Assembly: GCA_016188065.1 (NCBI GenBank)
Contig: JACPIN010000006.1
Location: 1-38,792 of the forward strand
Source of the DNA: Candidatus Woesearchaeota archaeon
GTDB taxonomy: Archaea > Nanobdellota > Nanobdellia > SCGC-AAA011-G17 > ARS1403
Length of the DNA: 38,792 nucleotides
Direction: 5' to 3'
Below are positions 5,581 through 38,704 of the stretch, in pieces. Made by a program: the position numbers and the translations under genes. The notes under the pieces were generated by a model. It saw nothing but the letters and a program-made list of their open reading frames with translations. It did no database searches and had not been told where the DNA came from. The first letter of the stretch is position 1. Every line of letters starts with the position of its first letter.

Positions 5581-8408
<2,828 letters not shown>

Positions 8409-17054: not shown

Positions 17055-17128
17055 ATAGTAGTAACCAGAAATTTGATTTTTAAGGGTTTTGGTGAATTTA
17101 ATTTTAACCGCTTCGCTCAGCTTCGCGC

Positions 17129-17199
17129 ATGGACACCTGCGGTTTCCATCTGCCTTCCCCTCACACTTTCTTTTTAGGAAAAAGAAATCGTGTCCAAAG
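17129..17199 (+). repeat. Hairpin repeat element copy 1
   Basis: ATGGACACC...GGTTTCCATCTGCCTTCC, then 9-bp stem TTTCTTTTT(agg)AAAAAGAAA inside TGGACAC...GTGTCCA. Confidence 0.7.
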
Positions 17200-17247
17200 A
17201 AAAAAACAAGGGAATATATTTTTATAACTTTCTCTTCTTTAAGTTGT

Positions 17248-17952
17248 ATGCACAGAAGGAAATTCTTAGCATCCTTAGCATCCTTAGCAGCATCAGTAAC
17301 AGTAGACTTAGAAGCCCAACAGCATCCGTCAATTATATTCCATTTCGAATCAGTCCCGCAAGGTGTATATCCTATGACAATAAAAGATAGGAAAAAGATA
17401 GAGGATTTGGTCTTGGAAGCAGCATTACAGTTTAATTCCAGACAATATGTTCCTCAACCAGTGAATTTAATTTCGTCTGATTACAGGACGGAGATATATT
17501 TTTCAGAGAATCAAAGACGGGGCTCATTTTATCCTTTCGCTAGATCATGTACTATTAATCTTGATTCAAGTATTTTACCTTTCGATGGGCATCTGCTATC
17601 TGTGGCTTTCCATGAGTTTTCTCACGAGTACGATGTACTTTGCGGGGAATTTGAGAATCAAATACAAGAAAATGAGCGATGCAGAAGCAGAAATCAAGAA
17701 GTCAAAAACGATGAGATTGATGAGAATAGATTGCGAAAATTAATGCATCAAGGTTTACTCATAAAGCGAGAAATATTAAGAAGTGAAGTTTCAGCATACA
17801 CCAGGAACCTTGCATATCTTCCTTCGCTCAAAACAAGGAAGTGGAGCCCACAACATACATTGGAATATCATCAAGAAAATCTGCAGTCCTATCTCAAAGC
17901 AAACAGTAGAGAATTATATTTTCTGGAGCAAACCATTTCATCTTCAAGATAA
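17248..17952 (+). CDS. Exported putative zinc metallopeptidase-like protein
   Basis: MHRRKFLASLASLAASVTVDLEAQ twin-Arg-like signal; SVAFHEFSHEYD HExxH motif; start moved from 17089 to the internal Met. Confidence 0.55.
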   Translation: MHRRKFLASLASLAASVTVDLEAQQHPSIIFHFESVPQGVYPMTIKDRKKIEDLVLEAALQFNSRQYVPQPVNLISSDYRTEIYFSENQRRGSFYPFARSCTINLDSSILPFDGHLLSVAFHEFSHEYDVLCGEFENQIQENERCRSRNQEVKNDEIDENRLRKLMHQGLLIKREILRSEVSAYTRNLAYLPSLKTRKWSPQHTLEYHQENLQSYLKANSRELYFLEQTISSSR

Positions 17953-30111: not shown

Positions 30112-31122
30112 TTATTCCCTAGAGCTTACATAAATCATGTTATTTTTTAAGGAGAAGTCAGCATTTAAGAATTGTTTGATCAGCCAGATATTTGTTTCTG
30201 CGTGCTTGGTTAATTCTGGAATTTTTATTGCACTTGTTCCTTTAGCAAGTGCAAGATATGGCAAAATCTGGTCTGTCATAAATTCATCCATGCAAGCTCC
30301 AGAGTTTATTTGTTTTAATAACCCTAAAGCTGCTTCATGTCCGACTTGCTCCGCAGTCTTTCCTATCTCTCCAAGAGCATCAAATCCTAGAATTGTATCG
30401 TCAAATTCTGCTGTTAATAACATTCCAGATCCGGGGCATATTGATGGAACATACCTATTGCAGGTTTTTAAATTAAAATTTTCCAGAGATTTCTGCGCAG
30501 TTTGTGATTGCCTCTCTGCAACCTGTCTTTTTTTAAGAAAATCTGAAGCAAATGAAAAACATGAGATTGATTTCAGCTCTCCGCATTCTGTTGTTTGTAA
30601 AGGTCTAAGATTAGTTTTTCTTGTCCTAACTTTAATCTCCGCTCCTCCTTTAGGAAAAAATCCATTTTTAACGACTTCAATACTGACATGATAATCCATT
30701 TTTTCAAGCAAGGGCAATAATACTTTCTTAATATAAATCAAGCTCGGCGCTTTCAAGTTAAATGTTCCACCACCTTTTATATGAATATTCAAATTATGAT
30801 GCGTACATGCTATTAATAATGACTGTAAAACTAAGGCAGTGGAGCCAGCTGTAGAAATATTAATTTCTAAATTTGTATTTGTTATTTTTCTTGGAATAAA
30901 TGATAACTCTGCCGAGTATAATCTATCTCCCTCAACTTTCGCATTGCATAATCCTGCTGCTGCCCTTACAGTCTGCAAATGCTGCTCTTTTAATCCCGGC
31001 TCTTTTCTACCTTTTCTTATATCTACAATCGTAAACGGCTTTTGCGTGATTAGAGAGAGTGCAAGAGCTGTCCTTATTATCTGCCCCCCGCCTTCTAAAT
31101 AGTCCCCTTTTATCTCAAGCAT
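30112..31122 (-). CDS. rtcA: RNA 3'-terminal phosphate cyclase
   Basis: IKGDYLEGGGQIIRTALALSLIT, GLKEQHLQTVRAAAGLCNA. Confidence 0.94.
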   Translation of the reverse strand: MLEIKGDYLEGGGQIIRTALALSLITQKPFTIVDIRKGRKEPGLKEQHLQTVRAAAGLCNAKVEGDRLYSAELSFIPRKITNTNLEINISTAGSTALVLQSLLIACTHHNLNIHIKGGGTFNLKAPSLIYIKKVLLPLLEKMDYHVSIEVVKNGFFPKGGAEIKVRTRKTNLRPLQTTECGELKSISCFSFASDFLKKRQVAERQSQTAQKSLENFNLKTCNRYVPSICPGSGMLLTAEFDDTILGFDALGEIGKTAEQVGHEAALGLLKQINSGACMDEFMTDQILPYLALAKGTSAIKIPELTKHAETNIWLIKQFLNADFSLKNNMIYVSSRE

Positions 31123-31166
31123 ACCCAGCAAAAAGGTTTTTAAGTATTTAAGTTTTCTTTTATTCC

Positions 31167-32039
31167 ATGTTTAAAGTAATCAGCTTTTACAAGTATGTTG
31201 AGTTGGAAAATCCTAGGTATTGGATGCATAAATTTAGATGGATATGCAACGAATTGAACTTGCTTGGGAGAGTCTTAGTCGCTGAAGAAGGAGTTAATGG
31301 GGCTATTTGTGGCGAAACAGAAAACATCAAGGAATTTAAAAGGAAAATTAGGGATAATGAAACTTTTTCTGATTTGACTTTTAGAGAAATGAATAGCAAA
31401 GAACAAGCTTATCATAAATTGGCTGTTAAAGTCAGGGACGAGATCGTAGCTTTCGGCGAAAATGTTGATTTAAATAAAACAGGCAAGCATGTTGAGCCAG
31501 AAGAATTAAAGATTATGCTGGATAATAAAGAAAAAATCATTCTCTTAGATGCAAGGGGCGAGCATGAACACAAGATTGGAAGATTTAAAAATGCAGTCAC
31601 GATGCCAATTGAGAGCTTCCGGAATTTTCCTAAAACTGCAGGGATTTTAGAGCCTTATAAAAATGAGAAAATTGTGATGTATTGCACTGGCGGGATCAGA
31701 TGCGAGAAGTCAAGCGCGTTTTTGAAGCAAAAAGGTTTCAAAAAAGTTCATCAGCTGAAAGGGGGGATAATTGATTTCATTAATAAATTTCCAAACACTT
31801 ATTTTGAAGGAAGCTGCTTTGTTTTCGATGACAGATTAACAACAATAAGTGAAACTCCAATAGCTATTTGTGAGCATTGCGGAAATAGAAGTGATAAATA
31901 CATTAACTGCCATAATTTGGACTGCGACAGGTTATTTGTGTGCTGTGATGAATGTGAAAGTAAAAATAATTACTGCTGCAGTATTAAATGTAAAGATGTC
32001 GGGAGACACAGAAAGAAAATTGCTGTTGTTGCAAGATAA
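31167..32039 (+). CDS. trhO: Rhodanese-domain tRNA uridine hydroxylase-like protein
   Basis: LGRVLVAEEGVNGAICG, LLDARGEHEHKIGRFKNA, MYCTGGIRCEKSSAFLKQKGF. Confidence 0.9.
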   Translation: MFKVISFYKYVELENPRYWMHKFRWICNELNLLGRVLVAEEGVNGAICGETENIKEFKRKIRDNETFSDLTFREMNSKEQAYHKLAVKVRDEIVAFGENVDLNKTGKHVEPEELKIMLDNKEKIILLDARGEHEHKIGRFKNAVTMPIESFRNFPKTAGILEPYKNEKIVMYCTGGIRCEKSSAFLKQKGFKKVHQLKGGIIDFINKFPNTYFEGSCFVFDDRLTTISETPIAICEHCGNRSDKYINCHNLDCDRLFVCCDECESKNNYCCSIKCKDVGRHRKKIAVVAR

Positions 32040-32063
32040 GTAGCAGGAAAACAAAATATTTTT

Positions 32064-32450
32064 CTAACTAACTTGATTTTCCTTTTCAGGCTTCCTCGCC
32101 CATTTTGAAACTAGTGCCATTGTTACTACTGCAAATATTGTAACGACAGATGCAGTTATGAGCTCAGAAAGATAAGGGTATTTCTGAACTAAATGCGGCT
32201 TGAGTATGTTGTCAATAATTTTTACTATAAAGTCTTTCCATGTTAACCCTATTACAAAAGATAATGCTGCTATAATTGCTGTTGAGGAATGCTCTCTGAA
32301 TTGAGATTGTAAAAACATTGTTTTTTCTTTTGCATGCCTCTTTGTCTTATCTAAAATATTTTCTAAAAGCTCTTTTTCTTCTTCTAAGCCCTTGCTAATT
32401 TCATTTTCTAATCTCTTATCAGTTTTTTCTGCTTGTTTTTTAACTGCCAT
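32064..32450 (-). CDS. DUF5654-like membrane protein
   Basis: IIAALSFVIGLTWKDFI and C-terminal TM. Confidence 0.6.
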   Translation of the reverse strand: MAVKKQAEKTDKRLENEISKGLEEEKELLENILDKTKRHAKEKTMFLQSQFREHSSTAIIAALSFVIGLTWKDFIVKIIDNILKPHLVQKYPYLSELITASVVTIFAVVTMALVSKWARKPEKENQVS

Positions 32451-32523: not shown

Positions 32524-32652
32524 GATTGCACATAATCGCTGTTATATTCCTTTTCAGAGAAAAGTTCGAGCATGGCGAGAAAGTCGTCGTGTCTATCGTT
32601 TCGTTATGGGGGCTCCCGTCGCTTTTTTGCTTCTTTTTTTCCAAAAAAGAAG
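32524..32652 (+). repeat. Junction element D
   Basis: GATTGnnnnTAATCGCTGTTA shared with junction C; 10-bp stem CTTCTTTTTT(tcc)AAAAAAGAAG at the 3' side. Confidence 0.55.
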
Positions 32653-32696
32653 GGTTAATAATAGTGACTCACTGGACAAGTACTAGCACAAGTTTT

Positions 32697-32724
32697 ATAA
32701 ATATGTATAAATAAGCATATTTAT
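32697..32724. promoter_or_regulatory. Putative operator of the R-M operon overlapping a TATA box
   Basis: Perfect 9-bp inverted repeat ATAAATATG...CATATTTAT, 10-bp spacer TATAAATAAG, 10 bp before RHH start codon. Confidence 0.6.
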
Positions 32725-32733
32725 GGGTTTAAA

Positions 32734-32889
32734 ATGAGTAATGGTAAGAGAACAATCACTTTAAGCGTGGATAGTAAAACTTATGAAGATTATAAAAACA
32801 TTTGTGATAAGAAAGGATGGATTTTATCAAAGCAATTTGAGAATTTTATATTTGAAGAAATCAAAAAAGAAGGTAAGAAGAATGACTGA
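32734..32889 (+). CDS. Ribbon-helix-helix-like regulator (51 aa)
   Basis: MSNGKRTITLSVDSKTYEDYKNICDKKGWILSKQFENFIFEEIKKEGKKND; below ORF-track cutoff; overlaps next gene. Confidence 0.7.
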   Translation: MSNGKRTITLSVDSKTYEDYKNICDKKGWILSKQFENFIFEEIKKEGKKND

Positions 32890-33778
32890 TAAATCATTAT
32901 GGACTAAAGAGCAGGAAATTGATTTCTTTATGAAATCTTTGCAAATAGCAGCTCCTGAAAAATTATTTTACAGGACTAATGATAAAAAGTATTATGCTTA
33001 TTGGCCAAAGACCTATGCTGATGCCAAAAGCACTCTTCAAAGCAGAAATGCCTTCATTGGTGCATATACTGAAAAATGGTCACAAAAACTTCTAAAGGAT
33101 ATTGCTAAAGATTTAAAGGCATTTGCTGTTAGAAAGATGATATGTGAAGAATTAGAATTAACTAATAGCTCACCAGCAGACGTTGCAATATGTAAAACTG
33201 ATTCTGTCGTACAAAAACCAACAGATATTCTAGCAATTTTTGAAGTTAAAATGTCTATAGTTTGGAATTGGGAATTGCTAAAGAATAATTCTAAATATGA
33301 GTTAAAAAGTTTGGGAGATTATCGAACACATCAAGGTAATCCTGGGTTATTAAGATCAGATAGTATGTTAAAAGCTATCGGAAAAAGTATAAGCGTTAGA
33401 ATAGCATCTCTCCATTCTGCAAAAATTCCAATTATTGTTTTGGGTAATACTCCTATTTCAAAAAGTTATCATGCAAAAATTGACAATCTTAAGAGTTACG
33501 GAATAATTCAAGGATTTTGGTCATTAAATCCTGCACCGCTAGATAATAATGGCGAGAGCCTCAAAGCCACAAAAAGAAATGGCTTCTTAAGGTTAGACAC
33601 ATACTCTGATTTCAAAAGTGCTACATTAAACCTTCTAAAAGAAGACATGAGATTCTTTGGAGGTATGAAGCCAAAGAATGAATTAGGGAAATTTATAGAA
33701 ATTGCAAATAAGGAAGATTCCTATGAGAAAAAAGCTGAGAAATTCCTGAACCTATTAGGGGAATCAAATGGCAAATAA
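32882..33778 (+). CDS. Putative type II restriction endonuclease (PD-(D/E)xK-like)
   Basis: PTDILAIFEVK motif; overlaps the downstream methyltransferase gene; start moved from 32783 to MTDKSLW. Confidence 0.72.
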   Translation: MTDKSLWTKEQEIDFFMKSLQIAAPEKLFYRTNDKKYYAYWPKTYADAKSTLQSRNAFIGAYTEKWSQKLLKDIAKDLKAFAVRKMICEELELTNSSPADVAICKTDSVVQKPTDILAIFEVKMSIVWNWELLKNNSKYELKSLGDYRTHQGNPGLLRSDSMLKAIGKSISVRIASLHSAKIPIIVLGNTPISKSYHAKIDNLKSYGIIQGFWSLNPAPLDNNGESLKATKRNGFLRLDTYSDFKSATLNLLKEDMRFFGGMKPKNELGKFIEIANKEDSYEKKAEKFLNLLGESNGK

Positions 33779-34691
33779 AACAAAAGGTACAGAAACGAGT
33801 AAATTCGGTTCTCCTGGTAGAATGAATCACGATTCCTCCAAATTTTATGGTGGTCGTTTATATGAAGGTTTGCCTACTGAAAAAGAAAATGTGGCATTCA
33901 TTGAAAATAAGGTAGAAGATAAAAACATAAACAAACTGTTCTGCAAATCAAGCGAAAAGATGAGTGAACTGCCAGATAATAGCGTTCATTTAATGGTAAC
34001 TTCACCGCCATATAATGTAGGTAAAGAATATGATGAGGATATGTCATTAAATGAATATAGGGAATTTCTTAAAAGAATCTGGAAAGAAGTGCATCGTGTT
34101 CTTGTGCCCGGCGGAAGAGCCTGCATCAATGTAGCAAATTTAGGAAGAAAACCATATATCCCATTGCATTCTTTTATAATAGAAGATATGCAAAAAATAG
34201 GATTTTTAATGAGGGGGGAGATTATTTGGAATAAGGCGTCATCAGCAAGCCCATCTACCGCATGGGGAAGTTGGCTATCTGCAAAGAATCCTGTTTTAAG
34301 GGACATTCACGAATATATCTTAATATTCTCAAAAGAAGCATTTTCAAGAGCGAATCATGATGACCAACCAGTAACTATAACCAGAGATGAATTTTTAGAA
34401 TTGACTAAAAGTGTTTGGACTTTTGGAGCAGAATCAGCAAGGAAAATTGGACATCCTGCTCCATTCCCTATTGAACTTCCATCAAGATGCATAAAACTTT
34501 ATACTTTTGAGAATGACATTGTACTTGACCCATTTGTGGGAAGCGGTAGTGCCGCAATTGCCTCTTTAATGACTAACCGCAGATTTGTTGGTTATGATAT
34601 TGACAAAAATTACATCAAAATTGCGCAAAAACGTATTAATGAAATTCGTGAAAAGAAAAAACAAAAAAAAATAAATGAAGTTTTGAATTAA
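33768..34691 (+). CDS. DNA methyltransferase (TSPPY, motif IV before motif I)
   Basis: LMVTSPPYNVGKEYDED then DPFVGSGSAAIASL; beta-class order. Confidence 0.92.
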   Translation: MANKTKGTETSKFGSPGRMNHDSSKFYGGRLYEGLPTEKENVAFIENKVEDKNINKLFCKSSEKMSELPDNSVHLMVTSPPYNVGKEYDEDMSLNEYREFLKRIWKEVHRVLVPGGRACINVANLGRKPYIPLHSFIIEDMQKIGFLMRGEIIWNKASSASPSTAWGSWLSAKNPVLRDIHEYILIFSKEAFSRANHDDQPVTITRDEFLELTKSVWTFGAESARKIGHPAPFPIELPSRCIKLYTFENDIVLDPFVGSGSAAIASLMTNRRFVGYDIDKNYIKIAQKRINEIREKKKQKKINEVLN

Positions 34692-34704
34692 ACTGTGTAG
34701 CAAG

Positions 34705-35187
34705 ATGAACAAGAAAGGCTATGCTCAAATTGTTATTCCAGCATCTGTAGTTTCATTATTAGTTTGGTTTTTCGTTATTGGACCTGCTTTAGAAGATGTG
34801 GGTAATTCTATAATCGAGGAACTTGGCCAAGATAGTATATGTCCGGAAGAGTTCACTACAACTCAATACAAGGTTTGCTTCAATGCAAATGGTGACGTAA
34901 TTGCAGATGGTCATTTTAATGAAGTTGTAACAATATCGGTAGATGGAACAACTGATTCCTGTCATATAAACACTGGAAACTATGACTTTCAATTTACTGG
35001 TTGTAGATTAGACAAATTTAATCAATTAGAAGCTTATAGTTTGATCTTGATAAATAGTAAAGGCAAAATATCTTTAAGTGGAAAAGAAATTATAAAAAGA
35101 ATTGGTTTAGGTCAACAAATTGTAAAAATAAAACCCAAACACCTAACCTGGATTCGAAGAATTTTACCGTTTATTAAATTCGCATAA
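34705..35187 (+). CDS. Hypothetical membrane-anchored protein
   Basis: MNKKGYAQIVIPASVVSLLVWFFVIGP N-terminal hydrophobic segment; 13 nt after methyltransferase. Confidence 0.6.
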   Translation: MNKKGYAQIVIPASVVSLLVWFFVIGPALEDVGNSIIEELGQDSICPEEFTTTQYKVCFNANGDVIADGHFNEVVTISVDGTTDSCHINTGNYDFQFTGCRLDKFNQLEAYSLILINSKGKISLSGKEIIKRIGLGQQIVKIKPKHLTWIRRILPFIKFA

Positions 35188-35269
35188 AAATTATTATGTA
35201 ATTTTTGGTCCATATTTCCTGTCAGAATGTATCAAAGGCGGCAACCACTTAGTAATAAATTGACACGAC

Positions 35270-35397
35270 GATTGAAACTAATCGCTGTTTCTCGACCCGA
35301 ACGGAATTTTTAGTCCCGCAGGACATAAAAATGGAGTGAGAGCGCAGCGTGGCACGGAGCGAAGCGGAGTGAGTCGAGAAAAGAGCGTTCATAATAA
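35270..35397 (+). repeat. Junction element C
   Basis: CGATTGAAACTAATCGCTGTT; stem TTTCTCGAC (35288-35296)/GTCGAGAAA (35373-35381); GAGAGCGCAGCGTG identical to element A. Confidence 0.75.
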
Positions 35398-35411
35398 AAG
35401 GGGCAAAACTT

Positions 35412-35956
35412 TTACTCCAATGCATAATCCCAGCCAGGTTGCCATGCTTTTGTTTTTCGCCAGTCATCTGCAAAAGCCTGTTCCCAAGTTTTATTTTTCA
35501 ATAATACATCTAATGCTAATTGTGGGGCTTTGTGCGCACAATGGCAACCGACTTTCCATCATAATTTTTCTTCAAAAAACCAAGAAAATCACTTATTCTC
35601 ATTTTAACATCTTCATAACTCTCGCCATCAGGAAATCTCCTCGTCACATATTCCTCTTGAAGGGGTTCAACAATTTCAGAGGGCTGTGCATTATATTTTC
35701 CATAATTACACTCCCGCAAACGTTTATCTGGAATAATTTTGACTTTATCTTTGAAAGTTAATTCAGCCGAATGCACAGCCCGTTTTAAGTCGGAGCAGAA
35801 AACTACATCAAAATGCTTGTTTTTAATTTTGTCCCACAATTCAACAGATTGTTGAACCCCTAACTCCGACAGGTCAACATCAAACCAACCAGAGGAGATT
35901 TCCTGTTCGTTATCAGTTGTAGTTCCATGAACAAAATAAGTGATTTTCGTTACCAT
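35412..35956 (-). pseudogene. Histidine phosphatase family gene, apparent 1-nt frameshift near the 3' end
   Basis: MVTKITYFVHGTTTDNEQEISSGW...GKSVAIV; other frame continues AHKAPQLALDVLLKNKTWEQAFADDWRKTKAWQPGWDYALE*. Confidence 0.75.
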
Positions 35957-36023
35957 ATTACTATTGAAAAATTATGATGATTTAAAAGTTTTGCCCCTTC
36001 AAATTTCAAAATAGCTCTTTTCT

Positions 36024-36120
36024 CGATTTCGTTTAATCGCTGTTAAGTTCTCCGACGACCAACGGGAGGAGAGCGCAGCGTGACCGAGCGACCGCAGGGA
36101 GCGAAGGAGTCGCTGGAGTC
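36024..36120 (+). repeat. Junction element A
   Basis: 57-bp gap-free alignment to element B (42/57 identical by hand count); stem CTCCGACGAC (36050-36059)/GTCGCTGGAG (36109-36118). Confidence 0.78.
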
Positions 36121-36158
36121 CGTGAATTACAACATCAAGAAAAGTGGGGCGCATATCC

Positions 36159-37322
36159 TCAATCATTATTGTGTTTTTTAAATAAATTCCAATAGATTAG
36201 AACGACAGAGATCATTAATAGTTCACCTAATAATAACGCTTTTACTGGGCCAATTTTGTCAGCAATAAGACCAATTATGAAGGCGAATATTGCAAAAAAT
36301 AGACTTCCGGCGAGAGCATTAAGGGAACCCATTGTTGCTCTTTGTTTGTCAGTAAATTCTTTATGAAGTAAAGTACGGCTGGCGGTGTTACCAACTCCAA
36401 AGAAGAATGAATTAATTGAAAGCATTACTGGTGAAACTATGTTTGGAAATCCTATAAAAATGAGGCCGTTTAATCTACCTATTATGTGTTGGGAGAAAAG
36501 GGTTTTGAGGGCTTTAAATTTTTCAATTACTTTTCCTGCAAAATGGTAGCCTAAAAAGGCAAATACATGGTCTAACGCACGTGCAATTCCTAATGCCCAC
36601 GTTGGCCAAAGTAATTGGATGAAGGCTGGCTTAAATTGGTGGTTTGTTTCTCCAATGCCGTGGTCTAAAATTGATGCAAGGCTTAATTTTCTAAGTTTAA
36701 GATTATCAACAAATGCTCTCCATGATTCTTTTAAATGATTAAGGATGTTTTCTGAAATTTCTTTTGTATGAATTTTTGGCTCAACAAACCAGAATGAAAT
36801 AAAGAGACAGATTAATTGAGGAACTATTGAAATTGCCATGACCAATTGAAGTGAGTAGCCAGCAATAAAACCACCAATTAATGAAGATATTCCTAAGCCA
36901 GCCTGAAACATTGAACTTAATTTTCCAAGAGTATCTGAAAATTTACTGATTCTTTTTTGTTGATTTAATGTGTCATAAACTAATGCGTCATTGTTGCCAC
37001 TGAAAAAAGAACTTGCTAAGCCCTCAAAAACTGCGCCAAGTGCAAGTATTATGAATGAGTTAGCAGCAGCATATGATGATATCGCCAGTACGCTGGCCAA
37101 TGAGCCAAGAATTATTGTCTTCTTTCTCCCAACACGATCGGATAAAACACCAGTTGGAACTTCAAAGATTGTACTTGCAATTGAAGCAATAGAAAAAACC
37201 GCCAGCCCAAGAGCGTATGAGCCAGTTACTTGTGCAAAATAAATAATTGCAATTGGACCATAGAGCCGGAAGTCTAAGAAAAAGTTGTGCCATCGTAATA
37301 GATTGATATTTCTTCCAATCAT
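36159..37322 (-). CDS. MFS transporter
   Basis: EVPTGVLSDRVGRKKTIILGS plus many TM segments. Confidence 0.88.
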   Translation of the reverse strand: MIGRNINLLRWHNFFLDFRLYGPIAIIYFAQVTGSYALGLAVFSIASIASTIFEVPTGVLSDRVGRKKTIILGSLASVLAISSYAAANSFIILALGAVFEGLASSFFSGNNDALVYDTLNQQKRISKFSDTLGKLSSMFQAGLGISSLIGGFIAGYSLQLVMAISIVPQLICLFISFWFVEPKIHTKEISENILNHLKESWRAFVDNLKLRKLSLASILDHGIGETNHQFKPAFIQLLWPTWALGIARALDHVFAFLGYHFAGKVIEKFKALKTLFSQHIIGRLNGLIFIGFPNIVSPVMLSINSFFFGVGNTASRTLLHKEFTDKQRATMGSLNALAGSLFFAIFAFIIGLIADKIGPVKALLLGELLMISVVLIYWNLFKKHNND

Positions 37323-37429
37323 ACTTTAAATTAAATCTCTGTCGTTCTTAAATGTATCCAATGCGCCCCACTTTAATCCAGTAAAAAATAAAGAAAGAGC
37401 GAATGCGATTCCTCATTCACGGACGGAAG

Positions 37430-37510
37430 CGATTGAATATAACCCCTGTTAAATGCCCCGACGACTGAAAGGAGGAGAGTGCAACGAGGTGCGAAGCAAG
37501 TTGGCGGGAG
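37430..37510 (+). repeat. Junction element B
   Basis: CGATTGAATATAACCCCTGTTAAATGCCCCGACGACTGAAAGGAGGAGAGTGCAACG, homologous to A; stem CCGACGAC/GTTGGCGG. Confidence 0.75.
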
Positions 37511-37540
37511 TAAAATAAAGAAAATAGGGCTGGCGAACGT

Positions 37541-37975
37541 TTATATTCCACAACAACCATAAACTGAAACATGACCATCACTAGTCATTTTCAAAGTAAA
37601 TCCTGAACAAGTGAAAGGATTATATTTAAGCACATAAATTGTTTTGATACCGGTATTTTTTGTTTTGACTTCACTTAATACTTTGTTCCAATTAACTTCA
37701 CTTTGAGGTGAATCTCTAAAATTGTCAAACTTTACCCACTTGTTCCCATATTGGTCTAGAAGTTTTCCTTCAGAACTCTTAAAGAAATTAACAAAATCTT
37801 CTTTGGAGTTTATAGTAACCTCAAATTTATATCTATCTTCAGGTCCACAATTTGGTGAAGTTCCTTTAGGCGGTGCGCCAAATGGGTCTAATGAATATCT
37901 TAAAATATTATAACCAAAACCAATAACAGCGATTATTGAAACTATAATTATTGCATAAAATAATTTTTTGTTCAT
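37541..37975 (-). CDS. Hypothetical exported/membrane-anchored protein
   Basis: N-terminal TM MNKKLFYAIIIVSIIAVIGFGYNIL; 144 aa. Confidence 0.65.
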   Translation of the reverse strand: MNKKLFYAIIIVSIIAVIGFGYNILRYSLDPFGAPPKGTSPNCGPEDRYKFEVTINSKEDFVNFFKSSEGKLLDQYGNKWVKFDNFRDSPQSEVNWNKVLSEVKTKNTGIKTIYVLKYNPFTCSGFTLKMTSDGHVSVYGCCGI

Positions 37976-38054
37976 ATTAAATCAATAAATGTTCTTTTAT
38001 ATAAATATTGTTATTATTAAATCAATAAATGTTCTTTTATATAAATATTGTTAT
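37975..38054. repeat. Perfect 2 x 40-bp tandem repeat
   Basis: TATTAAATCAATAAATGTTCTTTTATATAAATATTGTTAT twice; contains TATA-like TTTATATAAA. Confidence 0.93.
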
Positions 38055-38260
38055 AACTTTAAATCGATTTGAAGTGAGCCAGCCCCTTAATTATAAATTC
38101 TCCCGCCAATTGCATTTAATTGGTGTTAAGTGAGTTTTCTGGAAGAAAACCAATCCTGAAAGGATTGAGTTGCGGGGAAAATTGCTGTTATTGGAAAAAA
38201 GGCAGAACCGACATTCATAAATATCAGTTCCGCTTTCCTTCAATTGTAGGTTAAAGGAAA

Positions 38261-38551
38261 ATGAGCGACAATATTTCTAAATGGTATGAGAGACAAAGGA
38301 AACAAGCTCATCGTAGCAGAGCCATGAGATTTATTATATTCTCATTAACCATTTGTGGTATTTTGGCGGGAATAATCTGGATAGCATTTTGGGATTTTCG
38401 AGTAATAGTCTATCCTCTTGCCATAATTCTTGGAGTTTTTTTAATTGTTTGTCTATTAGTTCTTCTATATGGCTCTTTGAAGAGAAGAATTTATCTAATC
38501 CTGGAAAAAATTGGAAAATGGATTTCAGATGTATTAGGACTCGATGAGTAA
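38261..38551 (+). CDS. Small two-TM hypothetical protein
   Basis: RFIIFSLTICGILAGIIWIAF and VYPLAIILGVFLIVCLLVLLYG. Confidence 0.6.
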   Translation: MSDNISKWYERQRKQAHRSRAMRFIIFSLTICGILAGIIWIAFWDFRVIVYPLAIILGVFLIVCLLVLLYGSLKRRIYLILEKIGKWISDVLGLDE

Positions 38552-38657
38552 TTGGTATAGAGTTAAATCCAATTACTCTTAATAAAACATCTGAAGATTT
38601 TAAAGGTTCTGCCTTCTTTAGTTTATCTTCAATTTTCCGAGCAATTTCACTTAACAG

Positions 38658-38704
38658 ACTTTTAGCGAAGTTCGAAGAATTTGGGCTTTAAAACCGCTAA
38701 AAGT
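38658..38704. repeat. Hairpin-forming inverted repeat
   Basis: ACTTTTAGCG ... CGCTAAAAGT perfect 10-bp arms, 27-nt loop. Confidence 0.8.

Follow-up and report, generated by a model that had tools for sequence, protein, structure and literature searches.

How does each gene in a row come to be bracketed by inverted repeats that none of its neighbours share? The question is raised by the right-hand end of JACPIN010000006.1, a 38,792-nt contig (C18) in an 881-kb archaeal genome of DPANN type (Candidatus Woesearchaeota); the entire contig was analysed and is called the window. The gene units at 32536-38654 are read here as a mobile cassette array. In this reading, to which we give a probability of roughly 0.7, a Xer-type recombinase would exchange cassettes at a shared 6-bp centre, one partner would be single-stranded and folded, and the private repeats (arms) would pair across the gene. 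Cassette mobility and one cassette edge, the right-hand one, are strongly supported.

Private arms and a shared site in the window

The arms were assessed by local alignment of the left flank of each unit with the reverse-complemented right flank, against 1000 dinucleotide shuffles. The histidine-phosphatase cassette (unit 2, 35282-36036; gene on the minus strand, open reading frame (ORF) 35516-35956) scored 21.5 (p = 0.001), with outer arms at 35374-35386/36014-36026 and inner arms at 35398-35414/35983-35999. The cassette of a major facilitator superfamily (MFS) transporter (unit 3, 36037-37442; gene 36159-37322, minus strand) scored 15.0 (p = 0.001). Its arms lie at 36141-36154/37361-37374 and 36199-36212/37335-37348, and an additional third pair at 36110-36127/37415-37432 matches at 15 of 18 positions. 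The cassette of a 144-aa gene (unit 4, 37443-38119; gene 37541-37975, minus strand) scored 11.5 (p = 0.002; arms 37501-37510/38100-38109 and 37527-37534/38078-38085), and that of a 96-aa membrane-protein-like gene (unit 5, 38120-38654; gene 38261-38551, plus strand) scored 15.0 (p = 0.001; arms 38124-38133/38647-38656, 38176-38184/38630-38638 and 38199-38209/38605-38615). All units are read on the plus strand. Control ORFs elsewhere in the window (n = 41) had a mean score of 8.4 and a maximum of 12.0.

A first-pass annotation of the window had proposed that these four genes are each enclosed by repeats private to them. Its repeats were all recovered as exact pairs (13/13, 17/17, 14/14, 14/14, 10/10, 8/8, 10/10, 9/9 and 11/11), and the four units exceeded the shuffled control that it had called for (p 0.001-0.002). 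Their private character was also borne out: when the five left flanks were each compared with all five right flanks, every left flank scored highest with its own partner, and in many genomes arms pair within rather than between units. The set of four was incomplete, since a fifth, restriction-modification unit had been missed (unit 1, 32536-35281). It carries, all on the plus strand, a restriction-like gene (32783-33778) for which a family search gave no match, a type II DNA methylase gene (33768-34691) and a 160-aa ORF (34705-35187). Its arms are weaker, a 9-bp pair CGTCGTGTC at 32585-32593/35262-35270 with a marginal p = 0.1.

Such a pair would suit chance repeats in AT-rich intergenic DNA, as lone pairs of 8-10 nt are unremarkable. 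For the family as a whole, chance is refuted by the shuffles, the mismatched flank pairs, the control genes and a survey across genomes, and its probability is negligible. In the survey, arms of the same unit matched in 57% of 87 units (score of at least 11), compared with 5% when the two arms came from different units, and units ending in a recognised hairpin had matching arms in 77% of cases. A separate, earlier set of 69 units agreed with this result. Of the 50 units whose arms matched, 24 had a right arm that stopped precisely 7 nt ahead of TAAC.

The view that every unit has its own ends stood for the arms; a dif-like site shared between the units had been overlooked. The units are separated by copies of ATTGNRYNTAA-TCGCTG-TTA, similar to the dif site of archaeal XerA, with TAATCGCTGTTA or a variant between the window units. 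The delimiting site takes the form TAA-6 bp-TT(A/T), with window cores at 32533, 35279, 36034, 37440 and 38117. An exact 12-mer gave 23 matches against 3 for a reversed control in 41 genomes (that of the window and its relatives), and a broader site pattern about 50 against 0 in 40 genomes. Most genuine sites lead into a conserved module that carries the box GTGCAACG or GCGCAGCG.

The window sites all lie on the plus strand. Site 1 (32525-32552, ATTGCACATAA-TCGCTG-TTATATTCCTT) is a simple dif-like site. Site 2 (35271-35298, ATTGAAACTAA-TCGCTG-TTTCTCGACCC) leads into a structured module that, together with the centre, spans 35282-35374 and carries the box GCGCAGCG. Site 3 (36026-36053, ATTTCGTTTAA-TCGCTG-TTAAGTTCTCC) is likewise followed by a module with GCGCAGCG, and site 4 (37432-37459, ATTGAATATAA-CCCCTG-TTAAATGCCCC) by one with GTGCAACG. 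Site 5 (38109-38136, ATTGCATTTAA-TTGGTG-TTAAGTGAGTT) is divergent, and the standard box was not detected downstream of it. In sites 1-5 there is no inner hairpin, and TAA directly abuts the 6-bp centre. Site 6 (38644-38704) consists of a half-site, ATTTCACTTAA, and then a divergent hairpin, ACTTTTAGCG...CGCTAAAAGT, with AAGT and ATTTGG; its DNA fold has z = -2.0, its layout is that of the full sites described below, and the contig ends 88 nt beyond it. Two candidates elsewhere, TATTTTTTGTTA (L159) and TTATCATTGTTA (L042), are fuzzy AT-rich matches and were treated as false sites.

Movement of the histidine-phosphatase cassette

The whole histidine-phosphatase unit was found in three genomes of other families, with 93% identity in G296 and 90% in both G168 and G098, and was not found in G001, a genome of the same genus. 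For gyrA, identity to the three genomes is 66%-71% over parts of the gene, against 76% over its length to G001. In 3/3 genomes the identity ends at TAA^ (36036), and the flanks beyond are related neither to one another nor to the window. When all loci are taken together, blocks of similarity extending into a site begin for the most part at TAA or at the left half-site of 11 bp. The cassette system has carried at least one whole gene between distant archaeal lineages. The first-pass inference of cassettes is upheld by these comparisons: units recur throughout the phylum, arms pair within and not between units, and distant genomes share one exact unit that breaks off sharply where predicted. The module of the same unit also precedes other cargo, with about 98% identity in G030 and 92% in G082, which indicates that modules and cargo recombine as well. 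A plasmid search for this cassette gave no match.

In homologs of the phosphatase outside cassettes (66%-76% identity), arms of this kind did not rise above background, a scatter of AT-rich matches aside; the arms thus belong to the cassette form and not to the gene. The window ORF encodes 146 aa, against 181 aa in G296, G168 and G098, with a change of frame close to the C terminus; the short version is a frameshifted copy or an assembly error. The arrays of the window and of G001 share a neighbourhood with a DUF5654 gene and an rtcA-like gene (30112-32450 in the window; 5200-9584 of L043 in G001), and lie on opposite sides of the DUF5654 gene with different cassettes.

Covarying modules and a recombinase at the array end

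In window orientation, a full site begins with the right arm of the previous gene, followed by ATTGNRYN-TAA and CATCGCGATTAAGAG..AAGT-hairpin-ATTTGG..CTCTTAA; it continues with TCGCTG, TTA, the module, AGT and the left arm of the next gene. The hairpin, of 80-130 nt, is present at many sites. A small hairpin inside full sites has the same frame as a cassette, AGT-X..X'-ATT, with a short loop, and a gene cassette may be read as such an element carrying a gene in its loop.

In the module alignment 95.8% of cells are paired, with 100 two-sided against 4 one-sided changes and nearly no G-T pairs; pairing falls to 68% or less when the partner is slid by one column. At most positions the hairpin stems vary among several types of Watson-Crick pair; they have 13 G-T in 888 cells and a conserved 2-3-nt bulge (TC, TAT or TT). 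Hairpins were selected at no fewer than 9 of 12 matches, which biases the percentage paired and leaves the variety of pairs unbiased. At L238 (G030), module and site occur in a short tandem duplication with no gene between the copies.

The arms and modules might instead act in RNA, pairing transcript ends for stability or termination, with a separate recombination site. The arms do flank single genes, and those of the window lie in or near untranslated ends, but 50 genes have one orientation relative to the site and 34 the other, and the stems of modules and hairpins are nearly free of G-U. G-T accounts for 21 of 109 arm mismatches, approximately its chance share. A search of Rfam 15 at gathering score returned only tRNA-His from the window, and 13 site-bearing loci gave no family. 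A role in RNA is thus very improbable. The first-pass proposal of a cassette system on folded single-stranded sites fared well as to the cassettes, which are strongly supported; folding is supported indirectly, by covariation in which G-T pairs are rare.

In arrays such as G001:C12, G045:C4, G043:C43, G235:C1, G285:C18 and G285:C31, the last site is followed, on its own strand, by the gene of a tyrosine recombinase of ~270-310 aa, and archaeon GW2011_AR20 (CP010426.1, G037) has the same placement. In all, 15 recombinase genes have sites 5' on the same strand; two matches of opposing polarity are AT-rich pattern matches and were regarded as false. The regions were partly fetched for proximity to a recombinase, which biases the adjacency and leaves the polarity unbiased. 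Six of seven array-adjacent proteins passed the XerA_Arch model NF040815, the seventh reaching 207 vs 220 bits. All seven fell below the cut-off of the integron-integrase model TIGR02249 (178-238 vs 265 bits, in two stretches), and the one array recombinase aligned to IntI4 (2a3v) has a gap at the IntI-specific insert around patch III. The window contig stops before the expected position of its own recombinase; a recombinase on G000:C3 was rejected as the enzyme of the window array, as its contig has no detected site. The array recombinases L221, L222 and L158 (G296, G278 and G043) are closely similar, and two of these genomes are of known, different families. The recombinase itself therefore seems to move between lineages.

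Canonical integron cassettes, either a cluster of attC sites lacking integrases (CALIN) or an archaeal integron, would have IntI acting on attC, with the private arms incidental. Integrons with bacterial-like attC sites have been reported in archaea, Nanoarchaeota among them (PMC9668308). As in these, single-gene cassettes stand in arrays, the folded sites have TAAC/GTTA feet and a bulge, and a tyrosine recombinase at one end faces away from the array in matching orientation, which gives an integron layout when read from the other strand. A folded-site array beside a recombinase gene is thus present, though not in the window, where the contig ends first. However, the seven recombinases tested score below the integrase cut-off, the one aligned to IntI4 lacks the IntI-specific insert, and the R boxes mostly fail: attC R'' (RYYYAAC) occurs in 23 of 79 hairpins, R' (GTTRRRY) in 60 of 214 sites, and three extra R pairs (full 7-bp complement) in 10 of 79. 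Canonical cassettes have no private repeats around their genes; here the folded parts lie between the genes, each gene has cassette-specific arms on both sides, and there is an extra covarying module. We regard an integron of this kind as quite unlikely.

Exchange of dif modules, as with pdif modules on Acinetobacter plasmids, would have Xer swap short gene modules at duplex dif, with folds and arms as by-products or regulators. The Pyrococcus abyssi dif site is ATTGGATATAA-TCGGCC-TTATATCTAAA (PMC2958812), and P. abyssi XerA cleaves at the borders of the 6-nt spacer (PMC3646895). The window system shares with pdif (PMC6449649) and XerA/dif the dif-like half-site, the 6-bp centre, a Xer-family enzyme and the exchange of short gene modules, and the cassette edge coincides with a border of the centre. 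Set against the two 11-bp half-sites of a Xer site, the left half and the centre resemble P. abyssi dif, but the right half is degenerate, and most sites have a single good half-site. Unlike in dif modules, the end of an array is often occupied by a recombinase gene. Left unexplained are the covarying module, the hairpins and the constant spacing between arm end and half-site, and we know of no pdif module that has a folded module, a hairpin or private arms. Duplex dif exchange on its own is accordingly judged unlikely. Subterminal hairpins recognised by structure are found in IS200/IS605 and REP elements. The hairpins here are similarly subterminal, but position points here to a Xer-type tyrosine recombinase as the enzyme (no search for an HUH/Y1 transposase was made).

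The best reading places the system between Xer/dif modules and integrons. In window orientation, a cassette runs from TCGCTG-TTA through the structured module, AGT, left arm, gene and right arm to a half-site ending in TAA, and neighbouring cassettes join at TAA^TCGCTG^TTA. As XerA cuts at spacer borders and the mapped edge, TAA^, is such a border, we propose that the array-end recombinase works on cassettes as XerA works on dif, with exchange at the borders of the 6-bp centre. One exchange partner would be single-stranded and folded, as in integrons, with the module, and the hairpin where present, forming the fold. The private arms would pair, loop the gene out and bring the two cassette ends side by side. 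A folded partner would account at once for the covariation of the module, for the hairpin and for the complementarity of the arms.

Several observations weigh against this scheme. The right half-site is weak relative to dif. Circles, excision and strand exchange were not seen. The part played by the recombinase is assigned solely by position; the array recombinases are not supported as a single clade, and related genes also occur with no detected site. Strong arms are absent in 43% of units, partly from missed or decayed sites, and compensatory change between homologous arms was not demonstrable, as the four related copies are too alike. The scarcity of G-T favours folded DNA over RNA but does not prove it.

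A stronger form of this cassette reading may be put forward tentatively, at somewhat less than even odds: a phylum-wide system in which a single-stranded, attC-like hairpin has an entire gene as its loop, the cassette-specific arms joining two dif-like ends for a Xer recombinase lacking the IntI insert. If true, it would stand midway from Xer/dif to integrons, with the arms as a signature of how a chromosomal gene turns into a cassette. The origin of integrons from Xer recombinases and the conversion of genes to cassettes are standing questions. Xer-type recombinases occur here together with dif-like and folded sites, and the same gene occurs with and without cassette ends, which makes both questions testable.

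Distribution and other features of the window

A scan of one genome per GTDB species gave at least 80 loci, mostly in Woesearchaeota, Pacearchaeota, Nanoarchaeota and Aenigmatarchaeota, with a few in other archaea and in bacteria. Part of the non-DPANN records may be binning errors; a 1.92-Mb contig of a Methanoperedenaceae archaeon carries two sites. Pattern matches in Bartonella and Peribacillus were set aside as chance, their surroundings having no module structure. Viral contigs gave few pattern matches, and L125, the one read (L251 and L252 were not), looks like chance. A covariance model of the type-A module matched 118 of 279 genomes of the phylum and 99 of the 220 of good quality (45%), a lower bound, as the model was built on type-A modules, matched none in the window's own genome and misses other types. 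If confirmed, the system would be a widespread means by which small DPANN genomes exchange genes. No description of the motif or of such arrays in DPANN was found in the open-access literature, the search leaving out preprints and most subscription papers, and this integron-like archaeal cassette system is apparently undescribed.

Three further features of the window were recorded. A 40-bp tandem duplication (95%) at 37968-38047 lies immediately upstream of the 144-aa gene and overlaps its start. A 316-aa ORF immediately upstream of gyrB (5581-6531, plus strand) has a GSILGDGYV motif and resembles a LAGLIDADG homing endonuclease. Amid translation genes, a 287-aa ORF (17089-17952, plus strand) bears the peptidase-like motif HEFSHEYD.
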